A stretch of DNA of 46,162 nt, taken from NCBI GenBank assembly GCA_902825985.1, contig CADEDC010000033.1, forward strand, positions 1 to 46,162, in the 5' to 3' direction. This DNA is from an uncultured Acidobacteriota bacterium (GTDB taxonomy: Bacteria > Acidobacteriota > Vicinamibacteria > Vicinamibacterales > CAVVIG01). The translations under genes and the position numbers were made by a program. This document shows, piece after piece, positions 20,933-40,793 of the stretch; the first letter of the stretch is position 1; every line of letters starts with the position of its first letter. The notes under the pieces were generated by a model that worked only from the letters and a program-made list of their open reading frames with translations, searched no databases and was not told the origin of the DNA.

Positions 20933-21019
20933 GGACGCCAGCCGTTTCAAGACTTGATCCACTCCGGTCGGGTCGCCGCCGCCAGCGGCGGCGATCTTGC
21001 ACCGACGATCGGCCCAGAC

Positions 21020-22420: not shown

Positions 22421-22443
22421 CGTCCGTGGCACCCGGATTGCCC

Positions 22444-22884
22444 ATGCCGCCGACCGCAGTGGAGTCCCTCTGCCCACCTCATACCTGCACCATTCTCGTC
22501 GTCGACGACGACGCGACGATGAACGAGGTCATCGGCGTGACCTTGCAGTCCGAGGGCTATCAGGTGCTGGCGTGCGGCAACGGCCGAGATGCACTGCAGC
22601 TGCTGCGCTCCCGGGACGAAACGTGCGCCATCCTGCTGGATCTCAACCTGCCGGTGATGAGCGGCCAGCAGTTCCGCGCCGCGCAGTTGCGGGATCGCTC
22701 GCTCGCCTGGATCCCGGTGGTGGTGATGTCCGGACTGCCGGAGGCGCGGTGGGACGCCGAGCGGCTCGGAGCCGCCGCCTTCATCTGGAAGCCGGTCAAC
22801 CTCGACGAACTGCGCGGCATCTTCGCGCGCCTGCGCTGCGCCCGTGCCACGCCGGCGATCGAGCACCGTGCGACGCGCAGCTGA
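22444..22884 (+). CDS. Single-domain response regulator
   Basis: A CheY-like receiver without an output domain (146 residues from the ATG at 22444). The acidic pocket is in ILVVDDDATM, the phosphorylation site is Asp66 in LLDLNLPVMSG, and Lys116 is in IWKPVN. A TTG at 22417, overlapping the kinase stop, and a GTG at 22426 are alternative starts. It probably receives phosphate from the hybrid kinase just upstream. It converges with qhpE. Confidence 0.87.
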   Translation: MPPTAVESLCPPHTCTILVVDDDATMNEVIGVTLQSEGYQVLACGNGRDALQLLRSRDETCAILLDLNLPVMSGQQFRAAQLRDRSLAWIPVVVMSGLPEARWDAERLGAAAFIWKPVNLDELRGIFARLRCARATPAIEHRATRS

Positions 22885-22904: not shown

Positions 22905-22920
22905 GGCGGCGGACGCCGCC
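22905..22920. terminator. Hairpin between convergent response regulator and qhpE
   Basis: GGCGGC-N4-GCCGCC, a perfect 6-bp stem in the 35-bp gap between the two stop codons. It could end transcription from both sides but lacks a T-run. Confidence 0.3.
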
Positions 22921-23657
22921 TAACCGCGGGCGGCGGCCAGCGCCCGCACGGCGCCGCTCAGCGTACACCGGGCGTTCGGTTCGAGGGCGCGCGCCAGGAA
23001 CCCGGTCATGTTGGCGACGGCGAAGCTGATCCCGTTCAGGTTCCGCTCGGGTGGCACCCCGGGAATCGGCCGCGGGTAGGGCGAGGCGCGGAACACGAGG
23101 GCGTCGCGCTCGCCTTCGATCGTGAACGTGTCGCGCGCGATCGCCGCATCGGCCCGCACCGCCACCACGCCGGACAGGCTGCCCGGCAGCCAGCGCGTGC
23201 CGCCGTCGTCACGTGCGGCGACGATGAGCACACCGGCGGCGACGGCGGCGTCCACGGCGCCGCGGAGCGCCGCCTCGTGCGCCGCGGTCGCCGTCCCCAG
23301 GCTCAGGTTGACGACGTGCATCTGCGAGCGGACGGCCCACGCAATCGCGGCGACCAGCGCCTGGATGCTGGTGGTCAACGCCGTGTCGAAGATGCGTACG
23401 GCGTAGAGGTGCGCCTCCGGCGCCTTCTCGCGGATGGCGGCGGCCACTGCGGTGCCGTGGCCGAGTCGATCGACGAAGTCACGATCGAGCCGACCGGCGG
23501 CGTCGATGCCGACGCCGCCGGCGACGCCGCCGACGTGCGGGTGGCGGTGGTGCACGCCGCTGTCGACGATGGCCACGCGCACCCCGCGGCCCGTCCGGGC
23601 TGCCTCGCGTGCCGCGGACCCGACCGCCGCCGCGTCACCGGGCCAGACACTCGGCAT
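22920..23657 (-). CDS. qhpE: QhpE-like subtilisin-type leader protease
   Basis: A compact S8 serine protease of 245 residues with no signal peptide or propeptide, so it should act in the cytoplasm. The catalytic triad is Asp32 (VAIVDSGV), His67 (GHGTAVA) and Ser211 (NGISFAVA). The usual oxyanion-hole Asn motif (AAGN) reads AARDD here. In QHNDH biogenesis QhpE cuts the leader off cross-linked QhpC. This role is supported by position: the last gene of the qhp operon, with its ATG immediately after the qhpF stop (no gap). A general intracellular subtilase is the alternative, but the context makes QhpE much more likely. Confidence 0.85.
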   Translation of the reverse strand: MPSVWPGDAAAVGSAAREAARTGRGVRVAIVDSGVHHRHPHVGGVAGGVGIDAAGRLDRDFVDRLGHGTAVAAAIREKAPEAHLYAVRIFDTALTTSIQALVAAIAWAVRSQMHVVNLSLGTATAAHEAALRGAVDAAVAAGVLIVAARDDGGTRWLPGSLSGVVAVRADAAIARDTFTIEGERDALVFRASPYPRPIPGVPPERNLNGISFAVANMTGFLARALEPNARCTLSGAVRALAAARG

Positions 23658-25391
23658 TCACTGCACCCGGGCCGGCACCGACGCCGGAAACAGGGCCGAG
23701 AAGCGGCCGCCGGCGAGGCTCAGGTCGCGCGCCGGACCGTCCTCGACGATGCGCGCTCCCGACAGCACGATGACGCGGTCGGCCCGGCTCGCCAGGTCGA
23801 GGCGGTGGGTGATCACGATCGTCGTTCGTCCGTGCATCACCGACTCGTATCCCTCGATCACCAGCCGCTCGGACTGCGGATCGAGCGACGCGGTCGGTTC
23901 GTCCATCACCAGCACGGCGGGATTCCTCAGGAAGGCGCGCGCCGTGGCAATCCGCTGCCGCTCGCCGGCCGACAGGGCGGTGCCCCGTTCGCCGACGATG
24001 GTCGCGTAGCCGTCGGGCAGCCGCTCGATGAACCGGTCGATGGCCGCCAGCCTCGCCGCCTTCTTCACCTCGGCGTCGGTCGCGCCCGGCCGGCCGTAAC
24101 GGATGTTCTCGGCGATGCTGGCGTGCAGCAGCACCGGCTCCTGCTCGACGACGGCGACGTGCGTCCGGACGTCGCGCAGGCGCAGCGTCCGCAGGTCGTG
24201 GCCATCCAGCGTGACGCAGCCGCCGTCGGGGTCGAGGTTGCGGAGCAGGACGTCGGCGATGGTCGACTTGCCGCTGCCGCTGGGACCGACGATGGCGACC
24301 ACCTCGCCCGGACGGACGGTGAACGACACGTCCTCGAGCACCGGGCCGCCGCGATCGAACGTCAGGCTGACGTTGTGGAAGGCGACGCTGCCGTGCGCCA
24401 GCGGCAGCGCCAGCGCGTCGCCGGCCTCCTGCACCTCGACCGGCACGTCGAGGATGGCGGCCACCCGGCGGAACGAGACGCGAGCCGTGGCGAAGTTCGT
24501 GTACAGGCCCATGAGCGCCTGCAGCGGCGACAGGAACCGCATCTGATAGGCCATGAACGCGACGAACGTCCCCATCGACAGGGTGCCGTTGATCACGCTG
24601 ATGCCGCCGTAGAGAAACACGACCCCGGTGCCGGCCGACAGGATCAGCCCCGGCAGGCCGCCGGACAGATAGGTCAGCATCTGCATCTTCATCAGCGAGC
24701 CGATGAAGGCCTGGTTGCGGTCGCGGAAGCGCTCGACTTCGCGTTCCTGCGCGTTGACGTTGACGATCAGCCTGACTGCCTGGACGGTTTCGATGAGGAA
24801 GCTGCCGATGTCGGCGCTGCGCTGGCGGACATCGGCGACGTGGGTCTCGAGCCGGGTCCGGTAGCGCGTCAGCGCCCACAGGCTGACCGGCGTCGACACC
24901 GCGGTCAGCACGAACATCCCGAGGTCGAGCCACGCCAGCATGCCCACGGTGCCGGCGAGGAACAGCACGTTGCCCACCCAGGCGAGAGCGGTCTCCGCCG
25001 CGACGCGCTGGATCTCGCCGATGTCGTTGTTGATCCGCGACATGATGTCGCCGATCCGGGTCTTGGCGTAGAAGCGCGGCGACAGCCGCTGCAGGTGCCG
25101 GTACATCTCCAGCCGCATGTCGAACAGAATCTCGGCGGAGACGCGCGTGTAGCGCATGCCGCTGATGATGTTCAACGCGAAGCTCGCCAGCGTGATGGCG
25201 CCGAAGCGCAGCACGATGGTCTGCAGGCTCGCCAGGTCGCGGCCGAGCAGCGCACGGTCGACGAAGTCGCGCGACAGCAGCGGCAGGTAGAGCGATACCG
25301 CGGTGCTGACGAAGCTGATGGCGAACACCAGCGCGAGACGCCGCCAGTACGGCAGCATCAGCTGGACGGCGCGGTGCAGATCTCTGTCCAT
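23658..25391 (-). CDS. qhpF: QhpF-like ABC exporter (fused permease-ATPase)
   Basis: The 577-residue half-transporter has a six-helix membrane domain (about 1-310) followed by an ATPase domain. Walker A is GPSGSGKST, the signature reads LSAGERQ, and Walker B is VLVMDEPTASLD. It lacks the N-terminal C39 peptidase of bacteriocin exporters, consistent with a separate protease (qhpE). In the QHNDH pathway QhpF is the transporter needed to move the processed gamma subunit to the periplasm. It lies 194 bp after qhpB, the widest gap in the second half of the locus, and directly abuts qhpE. Confidence 0.88.
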   Translation of the reverse strand: MDRDLHRAVQLMLPYWRRLALVFAISFVSTAVSLYLPLLSRDFVDRALLGRDLASLQTIVLRFGAITLASFALNIISGMRYTRVSAEILFDMRLEMYRHLQRLSPRFYAKTRIGDIMSRINNDIGEIQRVAAETALAWVGNVLFLAGTVGMLAWLDLGMFVLTAVSTPVSLWALTRYRTRLETHVADVRQRSADIGSFLIETVQAVRLIVNVNAQEREVERFRDRNQAFIGSLMKMQMLTYLSGGLPGLILSAGTGVVFLYGGISVINGTLSMGTFVAFMAYQMRFLSPLQALMGLYTNFATARVSFRRVAAILDVPVEVQEAGDALALPLAHGSVAFHNVSLTFDRGGPVLEDVSFTVRPGEVVAIVGPSGSGKSTIADVLLRNLDPDGGCVTLDGHDLRTLRLRDVRTHVAVVEQEPVLLHASIAENIRYGRPGATDAEVKKAARLAAIDRFIERLPDGYATIVGERGTALSAGERQRIATARAFLRNPAVLVMDEPTASLDPQSERLVIEGYESVMHGRTTIVITHRLDLASRADRVIVLSGARIVEDGPARDLSLAGGRFSALFPASVPARVQ

Positions 25392-27152: not shown

Positions 27153-28604
27153 TCAGGCCACCCGTTCGGCCGGCTCGTCGTCGAACCGGCGCAGGTAGTC
27201 GGGGTTGCGGACCGACAGCTCGGCATAGACCTTCAGGCAGACCTCGGTCCAGCCGCGGATCCAGTCGCAGTAGTGCAACGTCGCCGACGTCGTGTCGCCG
27301 AAGCGCAGGTGCGCCTCGTGATAGCAGCCGCCCGAGCAGACCGGGCGCGCCCAGCAGGTGGCGCAGTCGGTCTTGTTGTCGATATGGTGGCGCCGCAGGA
27401 ACTCGGCCTGGATCGTCCGGTCGATGCCGTCGCGGACGTGCCCGAGCTTGTGTTCGTCCGACCCGGCGAAGCGGTGGCACAGGTTCACGTCGCCGTCGGT
27501 GGCCACGCCGACGAGGCCGACGCCGGCACCGCACGGATAGGCCTTGCTGACGCCTTTGTGCAGCTCACCGATGGTCTCGCGGACGTTCGAGAATCCATGG
27601 TGCTTGTTCTGGCACGCCGCCTCGAGGAACTCGTAGGCCAGTTCGGTGAACTGCCCGAGCATGTCGTCGAACCCCTGGCCGCTGATCGCGAAGTCACGCT
27701 CGCCGGAGTTGGTGACCGGCGCGAAGCCGACCTCGTGGAAGCCGATCTCCTCCGTCAGATGCGTGTAGATCGATTTCACGTCGAGCGTCTGCTTCGTCAG
27801 CGTGACGCGCGCCCCGATCGGCCGCGTCCGATGCCGGCCGATCAGCTCCTTGATTTTCGGCGCGACGATGTCGTAGCTGCCCTTGCCGTTGTGGAAGACG
27901 CGGAACTTGTCCTGCAGCTTCGGCGGGCCGTCGATCGACACAGTGACGGCGATGCGGTTCTCGACCAGGAAATCGATGACGTCCGGTTTCAGCAGCGTCG
28001 CGTTGGTGGTCAGGCTGAAGTCGAGGTGCTTGCCGAGCTCGGTGGCGCGACGACGGGCATACGCGACCGTCTTCTTGAGCACCGGGAAGTTCAGCAGCGT
28101 CTCGCCGCCGAAGAACGTGATGTGCGCCGTCGGGCTGTCGCCGGCCTCCGTGAACATGAAGTCGACGGCCTCGCGCGCCGTGACCTCGCTCATGAACTTC
28201 GGCTTCGTCCCGTTGCTGGTGTCGACGATCTTGTCGTCGCCGTACTCGTAGCAGTAGGTGCAGTTCAGATTGCACTGATTGGTGACGTTCAGCACCATGC
28301 TCTGCAGCGGGATCGGCTTCAGCGGGATGAACGCCGGCCGCGGCGCCGCCGGCTGCGTGGCGACGACGCCCAGCGCCTGCAGTTGCATGAGCTCGCCGAT
28401 GGTCTCCGACACGGCGGCATCGCCGAAGCGGGCGGCGAGCGCGCCGACGACCTCGTCGCGCGGCCGCGGACCGGCCGACAGCGCCTGGAGAATCGCGTCG
28501 GCCGTCTCGTCGACCTCGAACAGCGCGCCGCTCGGCACCAGGTAGACGAACGGATGTCCGGCGGCCTCGATGCGATGGTGCTCGCGTGCCGCGATCGTGC
28601 TCAC
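27153..28604 (-). CDS. qhpD: Radical SAM/SPASM peptide thioether-forming enzyme QhpD
   Basis: The 483-residue protein begins with a ~90-residue region resembling a peptide-recognition (PqqD-like) domain. The radical SAM cluster motif CNLNCTYC is at 111-118, followed by FFGGETLLN and SIDGPP. The SPASM region has Cys358, 376, 414, 417, 423, 427 and 446 (CATCWARPVCSGGC), enough for two auxiliary Fe-S clusters. QhpD forms the three Cys-to-Asp/Glu thioether bonds in QhpC. It overlaps qhpA by 4 bases and precedes qhpC, the same A-D-C-B order as in the known operon. Confidence 0.93.
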   Translation of the reverse strand: MSTIAAREHHRIEAAGHPFVYLVPSGALFEVDETADAILQALSAGPRPRDEVVGALAARFGDAAVSETIGELMQLQALGVVATQPAAPRPAFIPLKPIPLQSMVLNVTNQCNLNCTYCYEYGDDKIVDTSNGTKPKFMSEVTAREAVDFMFTEAGDSPTAHITFFGGETLLNFPVLKKTVAYARRRATELGKHLDFSLTTNATLLKPDVIDFLVENRIAVTVSIDGPPKLQDKFRVFHNGKGSYDIVAPKIKELIGRHRTRPIGARVTLTKQTLDVKSIYTHLTEEIGFHEVGFAPVTNSGERDFAISGQGFDDMLGQFTELAYEFLEAACQNKHHGFSNVRETIGELHKGVSKAYPCGAGVGLVGVATDGDVNLCHRFAGSDEHKLGHVRDGIDRTIQAEFLRRHHIDNKTDCATCWARPVCSGGCYHEAHLRFGDTTSATLHYCDWIRGWTEVCLKVYAELSVRNPDYLRRFDDEPAERVA

Positions 28605-30304
28605 TTCTCACCTCCGGCATCGACCATCGGCCCGTACCAGCGCATGTAGACCGGCACGGAGATCAGCAGGTAGCTGCGCGCCTTCAGGGGCGCTGTCGCT
28701 CCGGGCGGCGTGTGCTGCGCCACGACCCACAGGTCGCCGACGTTGTTGCGGTTGCCCGAACGCTCAGGGTTGGGGCCGTCGACCGCCGGCGTGAACATGC
28801 CGCTGGCGTCGATCGCACCGGCGAACTGTAGGTCGTCGTCCCCGAACGTGGCGGTATATTCCTCGACGCTCCACGTCGCGTCGACCGGACCGAGCATCAG
28901 GTCGTCAGCGGTGCCCGGCTTGCCGTCGGGCCCGTTGGTGAAGCCGACCGCTTCGAACTGCGCCAGCTGCTTCGGAAAGACGACGCCGCCGACCCGGGCC
29001 ATGCCGGACTGCGGCAGCACCCTGATGCCGTCGACCTTCGCGTAGACGACGAGCGCCTGCGGCCTGGCGGCGCCGGCGACCATCACGTCGCGCGGACCGA
29101 CCCTGGCATCCGCGGCGACCGTCACGTCGGCGTCGAGCCGACCGGGCGACAGGGCGGCCACCCGGGTGACCTGGATGCCGGAGCCGAACGTCACCACCGC
29201 CGGAGTCAGCGAGGCCGGCAGGTTGGCGCCGTAGATCGACACCGTCTGCGTCGTGCCCGCCTTGAGCGACAAGACGCTGGTGCCGACGACGATGGGATCG
29301 GCGCCGACCTTCGTGAGCGTCACGTCGATGCCGATTTCGTCGTGCGCGCCGGTGAACCAGCGACCCGACATCTCGCGGCCGCCGCGCTCGATCATCATGA
29401 CCTCGCGCCAGGTCCCCTTGTCACCGTCGGCAGCCGCCCGACCGCGCCACTGGAAGCCGGTATAGACCGTCGCCCGGCCGGCGCGCGTGACCTTCTTGCC
29501 GGCAATCGTCAGGTCGGTCCGGGTCGTGAAGGCGTCCGGTGCGCCGGCATCGGCGGTCACCGTGAACTCGCCGAACACCGGTCCGGTGCCGCGTTCGTAG
29601 CCGGCGACGATCCAGGTGCCGGCCATCGCCGGCAGCTGCATGGCGGCGGACCAGGCGCGCCATTCGGGCGTGACCAGCGGGAAGGCGGTGGACAGGTGGG
29701 CGACCGCCTTGACCGCCGGATCGCGGTTGTCGGCCCCCGGGGCGGGGTCGGCCTTGCGCGTGCGGCGGAACCCCTGGCCCTGGTACATCGGCTGATTGTC
29801 GACACCCGGGTAGTAGCCGCGGTGCATGGCGATCAGCAGATCCCACTCCGGTTTCGTGCGGCGCTCGGTCAGCACCCGGCCGAGTGAATGGCAGACGGTG
29901 CAGATCTGCGTGGTCGTCGCATCGGCGGTGTAGGTGAAGTCGTCCTGCCGCCGCTCGGCCTCCCAGCGGGCCGGCTTCACCTCGTCGGGCGCCAGGCCGT
30001 GGTGATCGGACAAATACTTGAGGATGGCGCGGGCATCGGCCGGTGCGAGGGCGACGTTGTGGATCCCGACCATCCGCTTGATCGTGAGCTCCCAGTTCTC
30101 GGGCGAGGCGCGGCGATACGAGATCCGCGTCATCATCCGGTCGGGCCCGGGCGTGTGACAACTGCCGCACTTCTGACGGACGAGATCGCTCTCGACCGGG
30201 ATGCCGGTATCGGCCGCCGCGGCGGCCTGACCAGCGGTTGCCGCACCGGCCCCGACGGGCACCAGTGCGGCAGCGAGCATCGACGAGAGCAACCAGTGTG
30301 ACAT
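28601..30304 (-). CDS. qhpA: QHNDH alpha subunit (diheme cytochrome c)
   Basis: The 567-residue product has a signal peptide (to about residue 25) and two c-type heme sites, CGSCH at 46-50 and CTVCH at 135-139, in the N-terminal cytochrome domain. The rest is made of beta-rich Ig-like domains (VGADPIVVGTSVLSL, TVSIYGANLPASL), matching the four-domain alpha subunit. It carries electrons from the CTQ quinone to a periplasmic acceptor, none of which is encoded nearby. Its ribosome site (GGTGAGGAG) overlaps the end of the small upstream gene. It starts 10 bp after that gene and overlaps qhpD (ATGA). Confidence 0.92.
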   Translation of the reverse strand: MSHWLLSSMLAAALVPVGAGAATAGQAAAAADTGIPVESDLVRQKCGSCHTPGPDRMMTRISYRRASPENWELTIKRMVGIHNVALAPADARAILKYLSDHHGLAPDEVKPARWEAERRQDDFTYTADATTTQICTVCHSLGRVLTERRTKPEWDLLIAMHRGYYPGVDNQPMYQGQGFRRTRKADPAPGADNRDPAVKAVAHLSTAFPLVTPEWRAWSAAMQLPAMAGTWIVAGYERGTGPVFGEFTVTADAGAPDAFTTRTDLTIAGKKVTRAGRATVYTGFQWRGRAAADGDKGTWREVMMIERGGREMSGRWFTGAHDEIGIDVTLTKVGADPIVVGTSVLSLKAGTTQTVSIYGANLPASLTPAVVTFGSGIQVTRVAALSPGRLDADVTVAADARVGPRDVMVAGAARPQALVVYAKVDGIRVLPQSGMARVGGVVFPKQLAQFEAVGFTNGPDGKPGTADDLMLGPVDATWSVEEYTATFGDDDLQFAGAIDASGMFTPAVDGPNPERSGNRNNVGDLWVVAQHTPPGATAPLKARSYLLISVPVYMRWYGPMVDAGGEK

Positions 30305-30314
30305 CAGCGGCTCC

Positions 30315-30725
30315 TCACCACGACAGACGCTTGGTCACGCGCAGCGACCCGGCACCAGCCGTGACGCTCGGCGCGTGCTTCATGCGCGAGCCCATGAACA
30401 TGAGCAGGCCGCCGGCGAACGCGGCGCCGAGGCCGGCCGAGCCGAGCTTGACGTTGCGGGCGGTCGCTTCGCCGAACTCGGTATAGGTGCCGTTCTTGTT
30501 GTTGATGAACGAATAGGCGCCGACCGAGAAGCCGGTGACGAAGATCGCGGCGCCAGCCAGGACGAGCGGCTTCGAGCCGCCGCCGAGGGCCGGCGGGGCC
30601 GGCGGGGCCGGCGCCACCTGGCTCTCCACCGCCTTCGCCGCACTCGACTGCAGGTCGCCGGCGAACGCCGGCGACGTGAGACTCGCGATCAGGAACGCCA
30701 CCAGTCCGGTTCTCATAGCCTTCAT
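30315..30725 (-). CDS. Small secreted or membrane protein between the receptor and qhpA
   Basis: This 136-residue protein is not recognised. It has a signal peptide ending AFAGDLQ (about 1-23), a Pro/Ala linker (APAPPAPPALGGG), and two hydrophobic stretches, about 52-70 (PLVLAGAAIFVTGFSVGAY) and 93-110 (GSAGLGAAFAGGLLMFMG). A two-helix membrane protein of the periplasm side is likely. It lacks Cys, so no heme or cross-link. It is 34 bp after the receptor and 10 bp before qhpA, so it belongs to the same transcript. A role in amine dehydrogenase assembly or in coupling the receptor is only a guess from position. Confidence 0.7.
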   Translation of the reverse strand: MKAMRTGLVAFLIASLTSPAFAGDLQSSAAKAVESQVAPAPPAPPALGGGSKPLVLAGAAIFVTGFSVGAYSFINNKNGTYTEFGEATARNVKLGSAGLGAAFAGGLLMFMGSRMKHAPSVTAGAGSLRVTKRLSW

Positions 30726-30759
30726 ATGTCTCTCCGCGTCTCAGGACGAATTCGAGCAG

Positions 30760-33504
30760 TTACCAGCGGACCTTGGCGCCCAGCTGCAGCCGGCGCGGCG
30801 CCACGTAGCGGGTCGGCACGCCGAACGCCGTGGACGAGCCGAGCGTCGAACCCACCCCCTCGTAGACGTCGTTGTTGGTCAGGTTCAGGGCGTCGATGAA
30901 CACCTCGAACTTCATCGGGATGGCCGCCGGCTCGAAGGTGCGCTGCACGCGCACGTCGAACAGGCGGGTCGGCGTGACGCGGCGGTCGCCGGTGTTCGGT
31001 TCCATGTTGATGGTCGGCGCCACCGGGAAGCCGAGGCCGGCGATGCGCAGCTGGCGCGTATAGAGCCGGCCGCTCTGGTGCTGCAGGTTGGCCGCCACCA
31101 GCACGTTCCACGGCATCCGATAGGTGAGCTGCAGCTTCATGACGACCGGCCGGTCGCCGATCAGACGGCCGTCGGTGTTGACGAAGTCGTTGGGACCGGC
31201 GGCATCACGTCCGAACGTCAACGCCTGACTGCTCTGCGCCGTGGTCGCGGTCGACCGGGCGCTCGACCCAATCCGGCCTTCCGACTTCGAGAGCACGGTC
31301 GAGAACACCGCCTGCCAATTGTTCGCCATCCGCTTCGTCAGCTGCATGGCGACGCCGTTGTAGCGCATGTACATGTCGTCCGGGTTGGTCTGCAGGAACA
31401 CCCGCGACGCGGCGCCGCTGGTCAGCCGGTAGAGCATCAGCGTGTCGCCGGTGGCGTCGACGCCGACGCTGTCGACGTACGGCACCTGCTGATAGGTGCC
31501 GGCGATGTCCTCCCAGCCGCCGTAGCCTTCCCCCCGCTTGTGGACGTAGTTCACCTGCAGGCCGAGGTTCTGCACCAGTTCCTGTTCGAGCTGGACGATG
31601 TACTGGTCGTTGAACGCCGGCTTGAAGTCCGGATCGATGCGCAGGTTGGCGTTGCTCGACACCTGCACGAAGTTCGACCGGTTGCCGTTCGCGTCCTGCG
31701 TGAAGCTGAACGACGGCGACACCGACGGCACCGCAGGACGGAACTCCGCCTGCTCCATCGCCCGGTAGTAGCGGCCGTAGTGCGCCTTCACCACCGTGCG
31801 GGCCGACTCGCTCACCTGGTAGTTGAAGCCGAGGCGCGGCGAGATGGTGTTCCAGCTGTAGAGACTGTCGTTCGCCGCCGACATCTGGCCGGTCGGATTG
31901 CCCAGCGCATCGAGGAACGGCAGCGACGGATACATCGCGCGGCTGTAGTCGTAGCGGACGCCGAGCGTCAGCGAGGCGCGGCCGAAGCGGACGTTGTCGT
32001 CGACGTAGGCGCCGGTCCACAGCACCTTCGCGCCCTGATGGAAGGGCACCTGGGTCGTCCCGGTCGTCTGACGGCCGGTGACGCTGTAGACCTGCAGCAC
32101 GTCGTTGTTGCCGGTCAGGCTGTCGCTGCCGTGGCCGCCGTACTGAAACCCGGTCTTCAGGTCGTGACTGGCGCCCATCGCCTTCTCGATGAAGTGGGTC
32201 AGCTTGGTCTGGTAGCCCCAGCGCCAGCTGCGGTTCTCGGCCCAGTTCTCGATGCCGCCGGTGATCTGCCCGGTGTCCTGGTCCTCGATGCGGGTCTGCA
32301 CGCGTGCGATGCCCGGCTGCAGCGGGTCGGTCGAGCTCTGGAGGTAGAAGCCGGACCACCGCGCCTCGAGGAACGTCTTGTCGGTCAGCACGCCGGTGTA
32401 GACGATGTTGGGCGTCGGGTTGTCGCCATGGCCGTAGCTGAGCGTGCTCGGCGCCGTGAACAGCGACGCGACCTGGGGCGTCGTGTAGTAGTCGTCGTGC
32501 CAGCCGTGCATGATCCGGTGCTTCGGGTTGATCGAGTAGTTGAACTTCCAGAACACCCGCTTGGTGTCGGTCTTCGTCGGGAACGCCGGGTTGACGCCGG
32601 GCTGCGAGTCGTAGTCCTGCTGGATCTGCACCGAACCGAAGAACCAGAACTTGTCGGTCAGGAACGGTCCGCCCGCCTGCATCGTCCAGTCGCGCCACCG
32701 CTCGCGGTTGTACGGCAGTCCGCGATCGACCGCGTCGGTCGTGTTGCGGCCGGTCAGTGCGTTGTTCTGATAGTAGAAGTTGCTGTCGCCGTGGAACTGG
32801 TTGCCGCCCTGGCGGGTGATGATGTTGAACACCGCCCCCTGGACGTTGCCGTACTCGGCCGACGCTCCGAGCTGGAGCACCTGGACCTCTTCGATGACGT
32901 CGGTGTTGGGCCACGGCGTGGAGCTGATGTCCGTGCCGTCGATCTGGTAGGAATTCTCGTTCGTGCTGCTGCCCAGCGCCTGCGCCGAGCTGCTGGTCCC
33001 GACGTTCGACGTCGAGCTCACGCCGGGCGCCGAGTTGATCAGATCGAAGTACGAGAAGCGGCGCACCGGCGCGTTCTCGACGAATTCCCGGTTGTAGCTG
33101 GTGCTGACTTCCGCGGTGACGACGTTGACGACCGGCGCGTCGCCGGTGACGGTCACCGATTCGTTGAGCGCACTCAACTTCATCTCGGTCGCGATGTTCG
33201 CGATGCTGCCGACGGCGATGGCGACCGCCTCCTGCTTGATCGTCGCGAACCCTTCGAGCACGTACTCCAGCTGGTAGCTGCCGGGCGGCAGCAACGGGAA
33301 GCGGAACACACCGGCTTCGGACGACACGTCGGTCTGATCACCCTGGATCGCGGCACCGCGAAGCGTCACGGTCACGCCGGGCAGCACGCCGCCGGACTCG
33401 TCGACGATCTTGCCGATGATCTCCCCAGTCGTCCGCTGCGCGGCAGCCGGCGTCGCCCAGCCCATCGCGATCACCAGTAACGCCAGGGCACACACCCGTC
33501 TCAT
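30760..33504 (-). CDS. TonB-dependent outer-membrane receptor (Oar-like, with carboxypeptidase-regulatory-like domain)
   Basis: From the ATG at 33504 (ribosome site GAGGAGG, spacing 4) the product has 914 residues. The signal peptide ends TPAAAQ near residue 23. Residues ~25-110 are a carboxypeptidase-regulatory-like domain (GEIIGKIVDESGGVLPGVTV), ~115-225 a plug domain (NSYQIDGTDISSTPWPNT, GAVFNIITRQGGNQFHG), and the rest a beta-barrel ending in a terminal aromatic (KVRW), as outer-membrane proteins do. It likely imports a large or scarce ligand in a TonB-dependent way. It sits between qhpG and qhpA, on the same strand, so a substrate for the amine dehydrogenase is a reasonable but unproven ligand. 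Confidence 0.9.
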   Translation of the reverse strand: MRRVCALALLVIAMGWATPAAAQRTTGEIIGKIVDESGGVLPGVTVTLRGAAIQGDQTDVSSEAGVFRFPLLPPGSYQLEYVLEGFATIKQEAVAIAVGSIANIATEMKLSALNESVTVTGDAPVVNVVTAEVSTSYNREFVENAPVRRFSYFDLINSAPGVSSTSNVGTSSSAQALGSSTNENSYQIDGTDISSTPWPNTDVIEEVQVLQLGASAEYGNVQGAVFNIITRQGGNQFHGDSNFYYQNNALTGRNTTDAVDRGLPYNRERWRDWTMQAGGPFLTDKFWFFGSVQIQQDYDSQPGVNPAFPTKTDTKRVFWKFNYSINPKHRIMHGWHDDYYTTPQVASLFTAPSTLSYGHGDNPTPNIVYTGVLTDKTFLEARWSGFYLQSSTDPLQPGIARVQTRIEDQDTGQITGGIENWAENRSWRWGYQTKLTHFIEKAMGASHDLKTGFQYGGHGSDSLTGNNDVLQVYSVTGRQTTGTTQVPFHQGAKVLWTGAYVDDNVRFGRASLTLGVRYDYSRAMYPSLPFLDALGNPTGQMSAANDSLYSWNTISPRLGFNYQVSESARTVVKAHYGRYYRAMEQAEFRPAVPSVSPSFSFTQDANGNRSNFVQVSSNANLRIDPDFKPAFNDQYIVQLEQELVQNLGLQVNYVHKRGEGYGGWEDIAGTYQQVPYVDSVGVDATGDTLMLYRLTSGAASRVFLQTNPDDMYMRYNGVAMQLTKRMANNWQAVFSTVLSKSEGRIGSSARSTATTAQSSQALTFGRDAAGPNDFVNTDGRLIGDRPVVMKLQLTYRMPWNVLVAANLQHQSGRLYTRQLRIAGLGFPVAPTINMEPNTGDRRVTPTRLFDVRVQRTFEPAAIPMKFEVFIDALNLTNNDVYEGVGSTLGSSTAFGVPTRYVAPRRLQLGAKVRW

Positions 33505-33837
33505 AAATCCTCCTCGGTCGCGTCGTGAGTTCGGTTGGCTGGAGATAGAGCGATAGATCGACCACTCCCCCCGACTCACGGAAGAGCAAGCGACATACCA
33601 CCACTGCGCACGGCGGAAAACGCGGCGCTTTCATCGCCACATGTCGGGCGACCGCGCTCGCGGCGGGCGGCAGCGGCTGAAAAGCCACAGCCGTGTCGGA
33701 AAACGCCGGAACCGATCGACATTTGTGTCGGGGCCGAGGGCAGGCATGGCGCGAATCGGAGAGATCGCCTTTGCAGGCGGGCCACCGGCACGTGGCACAA
33801 CACCGACAGGTTTGTCCGTTGCGATGCGCGGCGGCGC
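33505..33837. promoter_or_regulatory. 333-bp qhpG-receptor intergenic region with repeated TGTCGG motifs
   Basis: No gene is seen here. It carries an inverted repeat CGACA-TTTG-TGTCG (33717-33730), a similar one with one mismatch, CCGACA-GGTT-TGTCCG (33803-33818), and further TGTCGG half-sites at 33642 and 33694. CGGAAAACGC is directly repeated at 33614 and 33697. The region probably holds the main promoter of the receptor-qhpADCB transcript and operator sites; no convincing -35/-10 pair could be assigned. Confidence 0.4.
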
Positions 33838-35322
33838 TCAGACGTGCGGGGTCGCCGGCCGCGGCTGCATCGTCAACAGTCCACGCGCGACCAACAGCGA
33901 CACGCTGTGCAGGAAGGCCGGCAGCGGCACCGGCGCGACGGCGTGCGAGTAGGCCTCGTAGAGTCCCGGGACGTCGTGGCCGCCGCGGGCGATGTCGGCG
34001 GTGCGCAACAGGTCGACGCCGGCGAAGTAGCGCATCGGGGACGTCACGCCGGGAATCCGCAGCGCCGGTTCGAGCACGATCTCACGGCCGCGAATCAGCG
34101 GCATCGTGTCGTACGCCAGATTGCCGGCCGACAGCGGGCCAGGCGCGGCGCCGCGCAGACGGGCGAACGCCTGCTGCACGTCGGCGGCGCGCGCCAGGCC
34201 GGCTTCGTCCGGCGTGTCATGGCCGTCCGGAACGACGACGGCGGCCCGCTGGCCCCAGAACGGATGCGCGTGGCGGGCGAACGCCTCGCGGGCGTAGTCG
34301 CGCGATTGTCGCAGATGCGCCAGGAACATCTCGCGTTCGCGGGCGGCGAAGAAGTCGAGGGACGCGGCACGGCGCGCCGCGTCACTCATCGCGGTATGGA
34401 CCGCAATCGCCGCCACCCAGGCCGACGCCAGCGCCTTCTTGACGCCGAACGACGACAGCGGGTCGATACAGGCCCCGGCATCGCCGACCAGCAGATGCGA
34501 CGGTCCGGCGTAGGCCGACGACGAGTACACCGAGGCGTCGCACGCCCACGTGTGCAGGAGCGTCGCACCGGCGCGCAGCCCTTCGAGCTGCCGCGACCTG
34601 GCGAGCGCCGTCAAATAAGTGGCGTCGAGCGTCCGCCCGCGCGGCACCTGCGAGACGGTGCCGTCGACCATGACGACGAGGTGGCGGATGTCGGCGGCGA
34701 CCGGGATCGACCACGCCCAGCCATCCTCGCAGGTTTCGATGATCGTGTAGCTCTCGTCGGGCAGCCGCCAGCCGCCCGGCCGCTGCCAGACGCCGATGAG
34801 CGCCTGCATGCGAAAGGCGCTCTCGTAGCGGCGGACCGGACGGCCGACGACGCCGGCGCGGCCCGAGGCGTCGAGCACGAAACGGGCCCGCGCGGTGCGG
34901 GCGCCGGTCGCCGTCCCGTAGTGGAGGTGCGAACCGTCGCCGTCGGGCGCGACGCGTGTGACGGTGGCGCCACGCACCACCGTGGCGCCGGCGTCGACGG
35001 CCAGCTGCTGCAGCAGGGCGTCGAGCTCGGGACGGAACAGCTGAAACCCGCGCGCCCCGCCGCCGTAGGGTTCGAGTTGCGCCTCGCGGTCGCCCCACCA
35101 GACCGCGTTGCCGATCCCACGGCCGAAGCCGGCCTGCTCGACGGCGGCGAGGGCGCCGATGGCGGCCAGCAGCTTGCGGCTGCTCGGCGGCAGCGACTCG
35201 GCCAGGCCCCGTCGCCGGTCGACCTCGCGCGTCAACACGAGGACCGAGTGGCCCCAGGACGCCAGCAGGCGGGCGGCGGCCGCTCCCGCGGGACCGCCGC
35301 CAACCACCGCCACGTCCCACAT
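33838..35322 (-). CDS. qhpG: QhpG-like FAD-dependent monooxygenase (Trp hydroxylation for CTQ)
   Basis: From the ATG at 35322 the product has 494 residues. The N-terminal FAD-binding motif is VVGGGPAGAAAARLL (Gly8-Gly13), and the second nucleotide motif is LLVGDAGACIDPLSSFG near 225-240, as in tryptophan-halogenase/aromatic-hydroxylase flavoproteins. QhpG adds two oxygens to the Trp of cross-linked QhpC before leader removal. The assignment rests on family and on being next to qhpADCBFE on the same strand, but it is separated from them by the receptor and a 333-bp gap. A geranylgeranyl-reductase-like enzyme is the alternative. The frame continues 23 codons upstream, but the FAD motif supports this start. 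Confidence 0.82.
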   Translation of the reverse strand: MWDVAVVGGGPAGAAAARLLASWGHSVLVLTREVDRRRGLAESLPPSSRKLLAAIGALAAVEQAGFGRGIGNAVWWGDREAQLEPYGGGARGFQLFRPELDALLQQLAVDAGATVVRGATVTRVAPDGDGSHLHYGTATGARTARARFVLDASGRAGVVGRPVRRYESAFRMQALIGVWQRPGGWRLPDESYTIIETCEDGWAWSIPVAADIRHLVVMVDGTVSQVPRGRTLDATYLTALARSRQLEGLRAGATLLHTWACDASVYSSSAYAGPSHLLVGDAGACIDPLSSFGVKKALASAWVAAIAVHTAMSDAARRAASLDFFAAREREMFLAHLRQSRDYAREAFARHAHPFWGQRAAVVVPDGHDTPDEAGLARAADVQQAFARLRGAAPGPLSAGNLAYDTMPLIRGREIVLEPALRIPGVTSPMRYFAGVDLLRTADIARGGHDVPGLYEAYSHAVAPVPLPAFLHSVSLLVARGLLTMQPRPATPHV

Positions 35323-35488
35323 GCAGGTGGTGCCGGCGGGCCGCAGCCGATGACTGTGTACTGGATGACCGTGCGGTGGTGGAAGCGCCACGTCCCCCCG
35401 GCCTTAGCAAGGCCGATGCCCGGTCGACACCGAGCCGCTCCGAGGTGTCCGGCGCGCTTCGCCTGATCGCGGCAGTCGCGGGCCGGCG

Positions 35489-35520
35489 TATCATCGACTC
35501 ATGGAGAGTGCCTGGCCATG
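35489..35520 (+). promoter_or_regulatory. -10-like element and six-codon open frame in front of the S46 peptidase
   Basis: TATCAT (35489-35494), six bases, then ATG at 35501, opening MESAWP-stop. Its TGA overlaps the peptidase ATG (35518) as ATGA. The micro-ORF also contains GGAGAG, which can act as the ribosome site of the peptidase. Leaderless uORF or short 5' leader cannot be told apart by reading. Confidence 0.35.
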
Positions 35521-37611
35521 ATGGCGTGGAATCGCATGATCGTCGCCGCCGGCGTCGGCACCCTGCTCGGGCTCGCGGTCCTGCGGGCCGACGAAGGCAT
35601 GTGGACCTTCGACAATCCGCCGCGGCAGCAGTGGCGGGAACGCTACCAGTTCGAGCCGTCCGACGCCTGGCTCGATCATCTCCGCCTGTCGTCGATCCGG
35701 CTGATCGACGGCAGCAGCGGCGGCAGCGCCTCCTTCGTCTCGCCCGACGGCCTGATTCTGACCAACCAGCACGTCGCTGCCGGACAGTTGCAGAAGCTCT
35801 CCACCGCGACGCGCGACCTGGTGCGCGACGGCTACTACGCCGCCACCCGCGACGCCGAATTGAAGCTGCCGGATCTCGAAGCGAACGTCCTGGTCTCCTA
35901 CGAGGACGTGACCGGTCGCGTCCAGGGGGCGGTCAGACCTGGCGCCAGCGATGCCGAGGCGGCCGCGGCACGGCGCGCCACCATCGCGACGATAGAGAAG
36001 GACTCGCTCGACCGTACCGGCCTGCGCTCCGACGTCGTCACGCTGTACGCCGGTGGCGAGTACTGGCTGTATCGCTACAAGAAGTACACCGACCTGCGGC
36101 TGGTGTTCGCGCCGGAGGAACAGATCGCCTACTTCGGCGGCGACTACGACAACTTCACCTTTCCGCGCCACGATCTCGACATCACGTTCCTGCGCGCCTA
36201 CGACAACGGCCAGCCGGTGAAGACCGCCCATCACCTGCGGTGGTCGCCGACCGGCGCGGTTGACGGCGAATTCATCGTGCTGTCGGGACTCCCCGGTTCG
36301 ACCGATCGCCTGCTGACGATGACGCAGATCGCATATCAACGCGATGTCGGCAATCCCCTGCAGAAGCGGGTGTGGGAAGCGCGGCGGAACACGTTGCTCG
36401 CGTACGGCCGGAACAGTCCGGAGGCGGCACGGCGTGCCGCGAGCACGGTCCGGTCGCTCGAGAACTCGCTCAAACGGCTGGTCGGCCAGCAGCAGGGGCT
36501 GGCGAATCCGCGGATCATCAGCCGCAAGGCCGACGACGAAGCGTCGCTGCGGCGTGCGGTGGCGGCGAATCCGGCCTGGCAGTCGGCGTACGGCGGGGCG
36601 TGGACGCGCCTCGATACCCTCTACCGCGACGTGCCGGCGCTGGCGCCCCGTCTGGCGTTCTCGACGCTGGCGCCGTCGCGCCTGGGTGGCTATGCGACGA
36701 CGCTGGTGCGCTACGAGCGGGAGGCGCAGAAGCCGAGTGACGAGCGGCTCGACGAGTTCCGCGATTCGCGGCTCGAGGCGCTCCGCTTCTCGCTGTTGTC
36801 GACCGCGCCGGTCTATCCGGACATGGAAGAAGCGGTGCTGACCGGCTGGCTCGCCGAGGCGCGCGCCGTGCTCGGACCCGACGACCCGTTCGTCCGGGCG
36901 GCGCTGCAGGGCCGGGAGCCGCCGCTGGTCGCACGCGAGGTCGTCGCCGGGACGACGCTGGCCGACGTCGCCGCGCGCCGGCGGCTGCTCGACGAGGGCG
37001 TCTCGACGTCGGCCGACCCGCTGATCGAACTGGCGCGCCGCATCGACCCGATCGGCCGCGAACTGCGCGAGTGGCAGGACTCGACGCTGCGCAGTGTCGA
37101 AGCGTCCGCCGGCCAGCAGATCGCCGGCGCCCGCTTTGCCGTGTTGGGCAAGTCGGTGTATCCCGACGCGACGTTCACGCTCCGTCTCGGTTACGGCCGG
37201 GTGCTCGGCTACGAGGAGGACACGACGCTGGTGCCGTGGAAGACGACGTTCTACGGTCTCTACGATCGCGCCGAGGGCTTCGCCGAGAAGCCGCCATTCA
37301 CGTTGCCGGCACGGTGGAAGGCGCGCCGCGACAGGCTGGCGCTCGGCACGCCGCTGAACTTCGTCTATACGGCCGACACCATCGGCGGCAACTCCGGCAG
37401 CCCGATCGTCAACCGGGCCGGCGATCTGGTCGGCCTGAACTTCGACAGCAACCAGCAGAAGCTGGCGAATCGGTATCTCTACATCGACGAAGCGGAGGGC
37501 AGCCGGGCGATTGCCATCCACAGCGCCGCGGTTCTCGAGGCGCTCGCCAAGGTGTACGACGCGGCACCGTTGGTTCGCGAGCTGACACCGCCGGCCGCCG
37601 CGACGCGATAG
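35518..37611 (+). CDS. S46 family dipeptidyl-peptidase (DPP7/DPP11-like)
   Basis: This 697-residue periplasmic serine peptidase has a signal segment (about 5-24) and the S46 hallmarks: [19 protein letters not shown] with His85, [13 protein letters not shown] with the catalytic Asp at 219 or 221, and GGNSGSPIV with Ser626. The length is typical for DPP7. The family removes dipeptides from peptide N-termini. At the residue that separates DPP7 (Gly) from DPP11 (Arg), the FD-x-N motif appears to have Ser644, so the P1 preference is unclear. It is divergent from qhpG (195 bp between starts). Confidence 0.92.
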
Positions 37612-37671: not shown

Positions 37672-38196
37672 TCAGTTGTCGACGAGTGCGCCGGTCGCCA
37701 GAAGGTGCCACTGGCTGGCGTCGGCGGCCGACTTCCCTTCGGCCTTCGCGTGTTCCTCGGCCGCCTCGCGGCCATGGCCAGCCGCCGCGCCGTGGCCGCC
37801 CGCGGCCTCGTGCCCGCCATGTCCATGCCCACCGATCCGCTCCACCACGCCTTCGGCGACGGCACGCGAGCCGCGGGCACTCATCGGGAAGACGACGACG
37901 CCGTGCTCCACCTGGATCAGCAGGGTCTTGTCGGCCTTCGCCCGGGTCGGCGCGAGCGCCAGCCAGCACCCCATCTCCGCACAGACCGACGTCACGTAAC
38001 CTTCGACGCGCACCGTTCTGCCTTCGTACTTCGACGGCGACGCGAGCACGTCGGCCAGTGGCGTGGCTTCCTTGATCGAGACGCCCTTGCCGTAACTCTT
38101 CGGATCGGCGGCCGTGGCGATCGCCCCGGCCAGGATGCAGGCGACCGCCGACGCTGCAATCGCCGCGATGCCTCTCGATGGATTCAGGTTGTGCAC
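37672..38196 (-). CDS. Secreted DUF4920 (OB-fold) protein with a His-rich segment
   Basis: The GTG at 38196 has AGGAGGG about 10 bases upstream and gives 174 residues with a signal peptide (AAIAASAVACILAGAIATA). The DUF4920 core is recognised by YEGRTVRVEGYVTSVC and EMGCWLAL. It carries a His/Gly stretch near residues 118-145 (GGHGHGGHEAAGGHG and more), which looks like a metal-binding insert. It is divergent from the czcCBA genes across 77 bp that hold the putative CzcR boxes, so a periplasmic metal-binding role is likely but inferred. TTG at 38229 is another possible start. Confidence 0.78.
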   Translation of the reverse strand: MHNLNPSRGIAAIAASAVACILAGAIATAADPKSYGKGVSIKEATPLADVLASPSKYEGRTVRVEGYVTSVCAEMGCWLALAPTRAKADKTLLIQVEHGVVVFPMSARGSRAVAEGVVERIGGHGHGGHEAAGGHGAAAGHGREAAEEHAKAEGKSAADASQWHLLATGALVDN

Positions 38197-38229
38197 GGTT
38201 CCCAGCCCTCCTGCCAGAGCATAGCGCAA

Positions 38230-38258
38230 CTCTCATGTGGCTCTCATCCGGCTCTGCT
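38230..38258. promoter_or_regulatory. Three 7-bp direct repeats with 11-bp period (putative OmpR/PhoB-type box) upstream of czcC
   Basis: CTCTCAT (38230-38236), CTCTCAT (38241-38247) and CTCTGCT (38252-38258), each separated by 4 bases. Seven-bp repeats with an 11-bp period are what PhoB/OmpR-family regulators bind (compare the pho box, CTGTCAT repeats). The cognate candidate is the OmpR-type regulator at 43916. The box lies between the divergent czcC and DUF4920 starts and could control both. Confidence 0.6.
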
Positions 38259-38273
38259 AGAAGGAGGGTACCC

Positions 38274-39542
38274 ATGATGCGCCTTCTCCACCGCACCCGA
38301 CCCACCGGACGGGTGGCGGCTGTCGTCGCAGCCGTGCTGCTCGGGCCACCGCCGGCGGCGGCGCAGACCGCTGACCGGCCGGTGACGCTGCGCGAGGCCG
38401 TGCTGCTGGCGCGGGCGCAGTCGCCGGCCCGTCGTGCCTCGGTGGCACGCGTCGACGCCGCCGACCTGTCGCGCACCTACGCCGGCCGGCTGCTGAACCC
38501 ATCGACCGAACTGCGGTGGGAGAACCTGGCGCCCGGCCTGCCGGCGACGTTGCCGCTGGACATCTTCGCGACCGTCACGCAGCCGATCGAACTCGGCGGC
38601 GAGCGGGCGGCCCGCCGCGGCATCGCCGCCGCCACGCTGGACGGAGCCCGGGCCTCGCTGTGGGCGACCGAGCGGGCGCTCGATCACGAGATCGTCCGTC
38701 GCTACCTCGCCGTCGTCCGCGAACGCGACCGCGGCCGGACGCTCGCCGAGCAGGCGGAAGGGCTGGCGGAGCTGGTCCGCATCCTCCAACGGCGCGTCGC
38801 CGAGGGCGTGACCGCGGAAGCCGACCTCCGCAAGATGGAGACCGAACGGGCCCGCGTCGACACCGACGCCGCACTGGCCCGCATCGCCGCCGGCCGTGAA
38901 CTCGCGGTACTCGCCGCGGTGGTCGGCTGGCCGGCGTCACCGCCGCTCGACGCGCTCGAACGTCCGCTGGCGGTGCTGCCGGCGGCGGGCGACAGCGATG
39001 CCGTCGTGGCGGCGGCGCTCGAGCGGCGCCCGGACGTGCAGATCGCGGCGGCGCGTCTCGAGGCCCTGCGTCAGAACCTGCGCTTCGAGCAGGCGAGGCG
39101 AATCCCCGATCTCAACCTCACCGGCGGCTACAAGCGTACCGCCGGCTATGACACCGGCGTGGTTGCCCTGGTGATGCCGATCCCGCTGTTCGAGCACAAC
39201 CGGGCGTCCATCGTGTTGGCGAACGGCAACGTCATCGCGGCGGAGCTCGAGCTCGACCAGGCCCGGCGGCTGGCCGCGGGCGATGCCCGGGCGTCGCTGG
39301 CGGCCGCCGCCGAACTGCTGCGGCGCAGCGCCGATGCCGAGGCCCGGCTCGTCGATCCGGCCGGTCAGGTGCGCCAGGCGGCGCGTGCCGCCTTCGCGTC
39401 CGGGGCCGGCGATCTGCTGCGGCTGGTCGACGCCGAGCGGGTCTACGCCGACGCCCGCATCGCGGTCGCCGATCTGTCCATCGAGGCCGTCCTCGCCACC
39501 ATCGAGGCGCGGCTCGCTCTCGCGGAGGACGCGATTCCATGA
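38274..39542 (+). CDS. czcC: CzcC/TolC-type outer-membrane factor of RND efflux
   Basis: The ATG at 38274 follows a strong ribosome site (AAGGAGGG). The 422-residue product has a signal peptide ending AAAQTAD (about 30) and two outer-membrane-efflux repeats of long alpha-helices (REAVLLARAQSPARR, EQAEGLAELVRIL, DAERVYADARIAVADL). It forms the outer-membrane channel of a tripartite pump with the next two gene products. It overlaps czcB by 4 bases. Confidence 0.9.
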   Translation: MMRLLHRTRPTGRVAAVVAAVLLGPPPAAAQTADRPVTLREAVLLARAQSPARRASVARVDAADLSRTYAGRLLNPSTELRWENLAPGLPATLPLDIFATVTQPIELGGERAARRGIAAATLDGARASLWATERALDHEIVRRYLAVVRERDRGRTLAEQAEGLAELVRILQRRVAEGVTAEADLRKMETERARVDTDAALARIAAGRELAVLAAVVGWPASPPLDALERPLAVLPAAGDSDAVVAAALERRPDVQIAAARLEALRQNLRFEQARRIPDLNLTGGYKRTAGYDTGVVALVMPIPLFEHNRASIVLANGNVIAAELELDQARRLAAGDARASLAAAAELLRRSADAEARLVDPAGQVRQAARAAFASGAGDLLRLVDAERVYADARIAVADLSIEAVLATIEARLALAEDAIP

Positions 39543-40792
39543 GCGACACCTCTTCCGACACGTCCCGGCGGCTGACCGCGCCGGTGCACCGCGGCTCGCG
39601 GCTCTGGCTGGTCGGTCCCGGCCTGATCGCCGTCCTGCTGCTCGCCTGGTTCGCGTGGCACCGTGGGGCGGCGCCGGCGTCGGAGGCGGCGACCGACCTG
39701 CCGGCACTCGACGCCGTGACGCTGAGCAGCGCCGCCCAGAAAGACTCGGGCATCGATTCGCAGGTCCCGACGTGGATCGAACGTGTCGATCGCATCGAGG
39801 CATCCGGCGTCGTCGCCTTGAACGAACGGCGGACCGCCCGCCCGGGCGCCATCGCCGAGGGCGTCGTCTCTCACATCGACGTCCAGCCCGGCGACCGGGT
39901 GAAGGCCGGGACGCTGCTGGCGACGATCCACAGTCACGCCGTGCACGATGCCTGGGCCGGCTACTTCAAGGCCCTCTCGGAACGCCGCCGCTACGAGAAC
40001 GAGGTGCGCTACGCCAAGGTGGCGGAGGAGCGCGCGACGCGCCTGCTCGCCGACCGCGCGCTGTCGCCGCAGGAGGTCGATCGGGCGCGGTCGGATCGCA
40101 TCGCCGCCGAGCAGGGTCTGCTCGCGGCGCAGGCCGAGGAAGTGCGCGGGACCCAGGAACTGGCGCACTACGGCATCGTCGCGCGCCCGGAGGGCAACCC
40201 CCAGACCGAGGACGACGTGCCGGTGCGGGCGCCGATCGCCGGCGCGGTCATCGAGCGCCAGGTGTCGCAGGGCACCGCGGTCACGCCCGGGACGCCGTTG
40301 TTCGTGCTGTCCGATCTGACGTCGGTGTGGGTGATGGCCGAGGTCGACGAGGTCCACGTCGGCAGCCTGGCCGTCGGCCTGCCGGTCGAAGTCCAGGTCA
40401 ACGCCTATCCGGGCGACATCTTCCGCGGCACCATCACCTCGGTCGGCGACGTCATCAATCCGGCGACCCGCCGCATCACCATCCGCTGCGAACTGGCCAA
40501 TCCCGACGGCCGGCTCAAGCCGCAGATGTTCGCGCGGGTGATGCTGGCGTCCGAGAAGCCGCGCCGCATGCTGGTCATCCCCGAGCGCGCCGTCCAGGAG
40601 ATGGAGGGCCAGACGGTCGTCTTCGCGCGCGACGCACAGGGTCGCTTCCAGCGCCGGCCGGTCATCATCGGCGCGACGGTCAGCGGCCTCACCGAGGTCG
40701 TCAGCGGCGCCGACGACGACGACGTGATTGCGACGGCGGGGGCGTTCCTGATCAAGTCGGAGATGATGAAGCCGCAGTCCGAGGAGCAGTAG
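39539..40792 (+). CDS. czcB: CzcB-type periplasmic adaptor (membrane fusion protein)
   Basis: The 417-residue product has one N-terminal membrane anchor (about 22-40), a barrel-sandwich lipoyl-like domain (GDRVKAGTLLATI, VRAPIAGAVIERQVSQGTAV), a helical hairpin (YAKVAEERATRLLADR) and beta-barrel/MP domains (VWVMAEVDEVHVG). It bridges CzcA and CzcC. ATGA overlap with czcC; 1 bp to czcA. Confidence 0.92.
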   Translation: MSDTSSDTSRRLTAPVHRGSRLWLVGPGLIAVLLLAWFAWHRGAAPASEAATDLPALDAVTLSSAAQKDSGIDSQVPTWIERVDRIEASGVVALNERRTARPGAIAEGVVSHIDVQPGDRVKAGTLLATIHSHAVHDAWAGYFKALSERRRYENEVRYAKVAEERATRLLADRALSPQEVDRARSDRIAAEQGLLAAQAEEVRGTQELAHYGIVARPEGNPQTEDDVPVRAPIAGAVIERQVSQGTAVTPGTPLFVLSDLTSVWVMAEVDEVHVGSLAVGLPVEVQVNAYPGDIFRGTITSVGDVINPATRRITIRCELANPDGRLKPQMFARVMLASEKPRRMLVIPERAVQEMEGQTVVFARDAQGRFQRRPVIIGATVSGLTEVVSGADDDDVIATAGAFLIKSEMMKPQSEEQ

Positions 40793-40793
40793 C

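Follow-up and report, generated by a model that had tools for sequence, protein, structure and literature searches.

The window analysed here is a stretch of 46,162 nt at the start of a 59.6-kb contig (CADEDC010000033.1) in the 5.85-Mb genome of an uncultured Acidobacteriota bacterium (G000; G-numbers denote surveyed genomes and L-numbers surveyed loci). Judging by its relatives, the bacterium would belong to subdivision 6 and to an order of the Vicinamibacteria type. It carries a qhp locus, which encodes quinohemoprotein amine dehydrogenase (QHNDH) and its maturation proteins, and embedded in this locus are genes for an Oar-like TonB-dependent receptor and for a small protein of 136 amino acids (aa). 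We lean, without great assurance, towards reading the locus as an operon for amine catabolism that includes a dedicated TonB-dependent substrate importer, in which the small protein would be a membrane partner of the receptor clade with no role in the enzyme. The genes lie on the minus strand in the order qhpG, receptor, small gene, qhpA, qhpD, qhpC, qhpB, qhpF and qhpE; the receptor gene is 333 bp from qhpG and 34 bp from the small gene, the small gene is 10 bp from qhpA, and there are 4-bp overlaps between qhpA and qhpD and between qhpC and qhpB. The position of the receptor and small genes between qhpG and qhpA, the coordinates and the two short gaps had been given in an earlier annotation made from the window's sequence alone (the sequence-only reading) and proved exact on re-measurement.

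The sequence-only reading had named conservation of this neighbourhood in relatives as one test that could refute a link between receptor and enzyme, and the arrangement recurs in several genera. We sampled 162 genomes of the order, 65 of which have qhpA. Strong homologues of the small protein were found in 11 genomes, and in seven the receptor and small genes lie together within or beside a qhp locus (G000, G007, G010, G011, G015, G021 and G035). The order qhpG-receptor-small gene-qhpA is identical in four of these (G000, G007, G015 and G021; the G021 locus consists of two contigs whose ends overlap inside the receptor). G010 retains receptor-small gene-qhpA, and its contig with the receptor start shows no adjoining qhpG; in G011 the pair is found ahead of qhpD-qhpC-qhpA, together with a receptor remnant and a second small gene; in G035 the pair abuts qhpE on the opposite strand. 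The majority of the other operons have qhpG immediately next to qhpA. Receptor orthologues (at least 44% identity; 55-68% in relatives) are present in 26 of the 162 genomes, and 23 of these 26 have qhpA, compared with 65 of 162 overall (Fisher 4e-8). Within the window's family, the orthologue occurs in nine out of 14 genomes with qhp and in none of 13 without it, or, counted by genus, in seven out of 10 versus none of eight (p 0.004); genus-level counts were used in place of an rpoB species tree, as rpoB is too often broken in metagenome-assembled genomes (MAGs). The one congener of the window genome (G001) is without receptor, small gene and qhp alike. The arrangement is more than chance, since it recurs in other genera despite the ~51 receptors of the same barrel family in the window genome. 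Two further loci were noted in the survey: G015 has two qhp operons in one region (QHWB01000034.1, ~184-211 kb; L063 and L064), which flank a second receptor gene, a second small gene, and sulfatase-tetratricopeptide repeat (TPR) and TPR genes, and an acidobacterial qhp locus labelled Bifidobacterium breve (L088, CALQBJ020000110.1) comes from a mislabelled or contaminated MAG.

Different receptors are joined to qhpA elsewhere. In other Acidobacteriota classes, a co-oriented Oar-like receptor gene is found directly 5' of qhpA in G332 (gap of 7 bp), G499 (22 bp) and G422 (23 bp), with no small gene in between, and in G380 an Oar-like receptor gene adjoins qhpA divergently; these four receptors share 24-28% identity with that of the window, over the N-terminal third only. 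In G006, of the window's own family, the gene directly 5' of qhpA encodes a different Oar-like receptor (~31% over the N-terminus; L075:7538-10606), again without the small protein. On one strand, G499 has genes for a sigma-54 activator, the receptor, qhpADCB and an aldehyde dehydrogenase, and G332 has the receptor, qhpADCBFEG and an aldehyde dehydrogenase. With the neighbourhood kept in several genera, the operon-like spacing and these unrelated receptors at qhpA, the receptor-enzyme link suggested in the sequence-only reading has held up, and a functional connection between the two is probable. Outside the phylum, the Novosphingobium sp. RL4 plasmid (NZ_CP141945.1), whose QhpA is the closest plasmid-borne relative among the matches listed (41%), has a classical TonB-dependent receptor gene beside qhpE, in convergent orientation (L216:18124-20835).

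The receptor type of G332 may point to the substrate. A search of 396 genomes of the phylum, counting nearly full-length matches of at least 40% identity, found it in nine, five of them with qhp (G332, G422, G380, G478 and G366) and four without. In all five genomes with qhp the receptor gene lies within the qhp locus (Fisher p 1.5e-4), in G478 and G366 directly before a short qhpG. In G484, one of the four genomes without qhp, it adjoins a copper amine oxidase gene (L249:7105-12834; PF01179, E 7e-126), and in another, G410, it is beside the gene of an APC permease of the amino-acid/ethanolamine type, ethanolamine permease being among the models nearest to it. Our strongest argument that the receptor would import an amine is that QHNDH and copper amine oxidase, two enzymes with only their substrate class in common, are both found with a single receptor clade; the argument applies to the window by analogy, the G332-type clade being different from the window's receptor clade. 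The receptor could instead import another nutrient of the same source (a peptide, a glycan, or an iron or haem complex) and share only its regulation with the enzyme, as might be suspected from the haem requirement of QHNDH, from the receptor's lack of a ligand-specific domain in Pfam and from the sulfatase-TPR loci that hold its sister receptors. Mere co-regulation is hard to square with a clade found with two enzymes that use different cofactors and have a primary-amine substrate in common, or with the tight, co-stranded spacing of receptor, enzyme and aldehyde dehydrogenase genes in G499 and G332, and we consider it unlikely, though it deserves more weight than the other alternatives discussed below.

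The usual view is that small amines diffuse through porins to the amine dehydrogenases of the periplasm. We propose that here the receptor would actively import a primary-amine compound into the periplasm, where QHNDH (QhpABC, with cysteine tryptophylquinone (CTQ) and two haems) would deaminate it to an aldehyde and ammonia, and that an aldehyde dehydrogenase would complete the oxidation of the aldehyde. The small protein would serve one receptor clade as its membrane partner, for assembly or for energised uptake, and the genes from the receptor through qhp would form a single transcript. The gap between qhpG and the receptor gene likely holds a putative promoter of this receptor-small gene-qhpADCBFE unit; a simple scan found no sigma-70 site in the gap, and a promoter and terminator scan gave no signal above chance. 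The sequence-only reading had proposed a larger amine as the substrate, which is possible and not needed, as scarcity would equally justify TonB-dependent uptake.

The linkage does not have a simple history. The approximately unbiased (AU) test rejects monophyly both for the qhp-linked receptors (p 3e-6), which have free-standing receptors nested among them, and for the linked QhpA proteins (p 6e-5); a single origin followed by faithful inheritance was rejected on both counts. G010 has a decayed small gene (L060:9768-9888, QHWJ01000126.1; two 52-bp pieces with 86.5% and 78.8% DNA identity by blastn) directly before a second, intact and receptor-less qhpA, where the receptor-small gene cassette was once also present. 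Together with the receptor remnant in G011, these observations indicate that the pair has joined and left qhp more than once, or that it is ancestral with frequent loss. Such comings and goings are also what would be seen if abundant receptors simply hitch-hiked, landing beside qhp by accident, with one placement inherited in the window's family: the receptors we detected number 22-53 per genome (lower bounds for some genomes), or ~1-2% of genes. However, nine of the ~44 operons surveyed have a co-oriented receptor gene in the slot immediately 5' of qhpA, and these receptors belong to four lineages; given 1-2% per slot and ~25 independent lineages, the chance of four lineages is ~1e-4 to 1e-3 (the ~25 is our own estimate, on which the linkage, the spacing and the G332-type result do not rest). 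The receptor-qhpA gaps of 7-23 bp, and the presence of the G332-type receptor in the qhp locus of every qhp-bearing genome that possesses it, also speak against hitch-hiking, which we regard as rather improbable.

The small protein has a signal peptide, an Ala/Pro-rich linker, two glycine-rich hydrophobic segments (19 residues each, mean Kyte-Doolittle values 1.7 and 1.5), an Asn/Glu-bearing loop and an invariant C-terminal W. A low-confidence AlphaFold2 (AF2) model, with a mean predicted local distance difference test score (pLDDT) of 59, places helices at residues 52-74 and 92-117. These features agree with its earlier description as a membrane protein insofar as a signal peptide and two hydrophobic segments are present, the membrane location itself being a prediction. 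The protein and its family had no match in Pfam, NCBIfam or PDB; Pfam gave no SusD domain and no TonB C-terminal domain, and the sequence contains no lipobox and no cysteine. The arrangement is similar to SusCD pairs in that a TonB receptor is encoded with a dedicated partner, whereas here that partner, 136 aa long and with two hydrophobic segments, is not a SusD lipoprotein.

Outside qhp loci, the small gene is found directly behind a receptor gene of the same clade in four genomes: in G024, G090 and G063 it starts 11-12 bp past the receptor stop, with an overlapping Shine-Dalgarno sequence (TAAAGGAG), and in G037 the distance is 100 bp. Two divergent copies (G015b and G024b) are separated by a few genes from a sister receptor. 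Since the small protein always travels with the receptor clade, also outside qhp, it appears to be a companion of that clade. The sequence-only reading had suggested that it may be a new assembly or coupling factor, and its position next to qhpA in G000, G007, G010, G015 and G021 might be cited for an assembly or electron-coupling role in QHNDH. That role is not supported by the survey and was rejected on the protein's distribution: the small gene is missing from most of the ~44 qhp operons, including most complete ones, the core-clade gene always stands behind the receptor gene even where there is no qhp, and in other classes, where receptors of other types stand at qhpA, the small gene does not accompany them. 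With the gene decayed ahead of an intact qhpA in G010, and no redox motif found in the protein, we give an enzyme factor hardly any credence.

The receptor has a signal peptide, CarboxypepD_reg, plug and barrel domains above their cut-offs and a C-terminal beta-signal. Its best full-length paralogue in the window genome is 30% identical, it has no PDB match by sequence, and an AF2 model built from nine sequences (mean pLDDT 46.5) has many strands with the plug unresolved. Sister receptors (47-50% identity) of family f2 occupy a conserved locus with genes for sulfatase-TPR and TPR membrane proteins, sometimes with an amino-acid permease (L171, L172, L173, L174, L175, L176, L181 and L183); the genomes all have qhpA elsewhere. 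The domain architecture (CarboxypepD_reg, plug and OMP_b-brl_4) is the same as that of Oar-type TonB-dependent transporters, including Oar of Myxococcus, which, with PopC, provides a precedent for receptor-mediated protein export (PMC6434023), whereas the window receptor is encoded with an amine dehydrogenase. By that precedent the receptor could move a protein out, e.g. an amine-releasing enzyme, and some qhp loci do have a peptidase gene nearby, of type S46 in the window, S9 in Novosphingobium and M16 in both G010 and G011; however, these are different peptidases, none of them a conserved neighbour of qhp, and no gene in the locus resembles a dedicated exported substrate, so that we hold export to be very improbable. 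PqqU, the TonB-dependent importer of pyrroloquinoline quinone (PQQ) (PMC12124388), is likewise a TonB-dependent transporter functionally tied to periplasmic quinoprotein enzymes, but QHNDH builds its quinone from its own polypeptide and requires no PQQ, and an NCBIfam profile search gave the window receptor no match to a PqqU-type model.

A complete qhp set surrounds the receptor gene: QhpA, QhpD, QhpC and QhpE score above curated cut-offs, QhpG and QhpB below them, and QhpF is an ABC exporter. The cofactor motifs are present, namely two CxxCH in QhpA, the CxxxCxxC radical-SAM motif in QhpD, and a Cys/Trp/Asp pattern in QhpC that agrees with Cys37, Cys41, Trp43 and Asp49 published for the gamma subunit (PMC7876137); with the CTQ, haem and radical-SAM motifs intact, the QHNDH of the window is very probably functional. 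The qhpABCDEFGR system has been found in >1300 species (PMC7876137). Compared with the operon of Paracoccus denitrificans (qhpABCDEFGR; annotated peaABCD), the window has the same structural and maturation genes A-G and the same CTQ and haem motifs, and additionally holds the TonB-dependent receptor and its partner protein; no qhpR-like AraC regulator was seen adjoining the operon. The Paracoccus and Cupriavidus loci sampled have no receptor, in agreement with the remark in the sequence-only reading that described qhp operons do without one. We also considered a special QhpA type accompanying the receptor and rejected it, the nearest QhpA proteins being receptor-less ones. A QhpA paralogue in the window genome (L051:12846-14747; C22:72917-74416) is 36% identical, lies at a contig end and is beside a gene for a PepSY membrane protein; like those at L224, L229 and L222, it has no qhpC or qhpD nearby and hence no CTQ subunit.

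Several observations weigh against a dedicated amine importer. Most qhp operons have no receptor, which is therefore dispensable for the enzyme; receptors of the same clade lie beside non-qhp genes in G024, G037, G063 and G090, and the sister clades sit in the sulfatase-TPR loci. The window QhpA is closest to one without a linked receptor (G026, 61%), and this comparison shows no apparent sign of specialisation in the enzyme itself. The neighbouring copper amine oxidase comes from one genome so far, the co-occurrence tests are only partly corrected for kinship, and single receptor adjacencies are weak evidence in Acidobacteriota, which carry tens of such receptors.

The coordinates of the features are collected in the table. 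Three neighbouring gene sets were also noted: a hybrid histidine kinase with a response regulator just downstream of qhpE (20327-22884), which is a candidate regulator pair; an S46 dipeptidyl-peptidase gene divergent from qhpG (35518-37611), of which no counterpart was noticed at the G007 qhp locus; and, upstream of the window's qhp locus, an efflux set resembling CusCBA/CzcCBA (38178-43901).

Table. Features of the qhp locus in window coordinates, with the basis of each assignment
Feature	Coordinates	Strand	Basis
qhpG, FAD (flavin adenine dinucleotide) monooxygenase for CTQ biogenesis	33838..35391	-	NF049967 223.7 bits (cut-off 240); adjoins qhpA in most relatives
gap qhpG-receptor, 333 bp	33505..33837	-	AGGAGG immediately ahead of receptor ATG
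Oar-like TonB-dependent receptor, 914 aa	30760..33504	-	PF13620, PF07715 and PF25183; signal peptide; C-terminal QLGAKVRW
small receptor-partner protein (putative), 136 aa	30315..30725	-	alignments; outside known families
qhpA, QHNDH alpha subunit	28601..30304	-	TIGR03908 461 bits (cut-off 274); two CxxCH haem motifs
qhpD, radical SAM thioether-forming maturase	27153..28604	-	TIGR03906 567 bits (cut-off 453)
qhpC, QHNDH gamma subunit with CTQ residues	26698..27072	-	NF037958 120.9 bits (cut-off 50); C-x3-C-x-W-x5-D
qhpB, QHNDH beta subunit, beta-propeller, 371 aa	25586..26701	-	TIGR03907 71.5 bits (cut-off 223, below cut-off); position
qhpF, ABC (ATP-binding cassette) exporter of gamma subunit	23658..25391	-	PF00664 and PF00005; position; ~58-71% identity to same gene in relatives
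qhpE, subtilisin-like leader protease	22920..23657	-	NF049966 167.6 bits (cut-off 165)

The enzyme system and the Oar-like receptor architecture are both known; their combination appears to be new, and the family of the small protein is unnamed. Within the searchable literature, none of the papers examined that mention both QHNDH and a TonB receptor links the two. Receptors recruited repeatedly to an enzyme operon would imply that a scarce or large amine is actively captured at the outer membrane. More broadly, and as a tentative proposal, Acidobacteriota may several times have evolved TonB-dependent uptake of primary amines that feeds a periplasmic QHNDH or copper amine oxidase (the latter in one case), and the small protein may found a new family of dedicated partners of TonB-dependent transporters, one that is available for study. 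For some of the orphan receptors of these abundant and poorly cultured soil bacteria, the linkage provides a testable ligand class, and its recurrence with unrelated importers in many Acidobacteriota suggests that they actively take up the amine that they oxidise.

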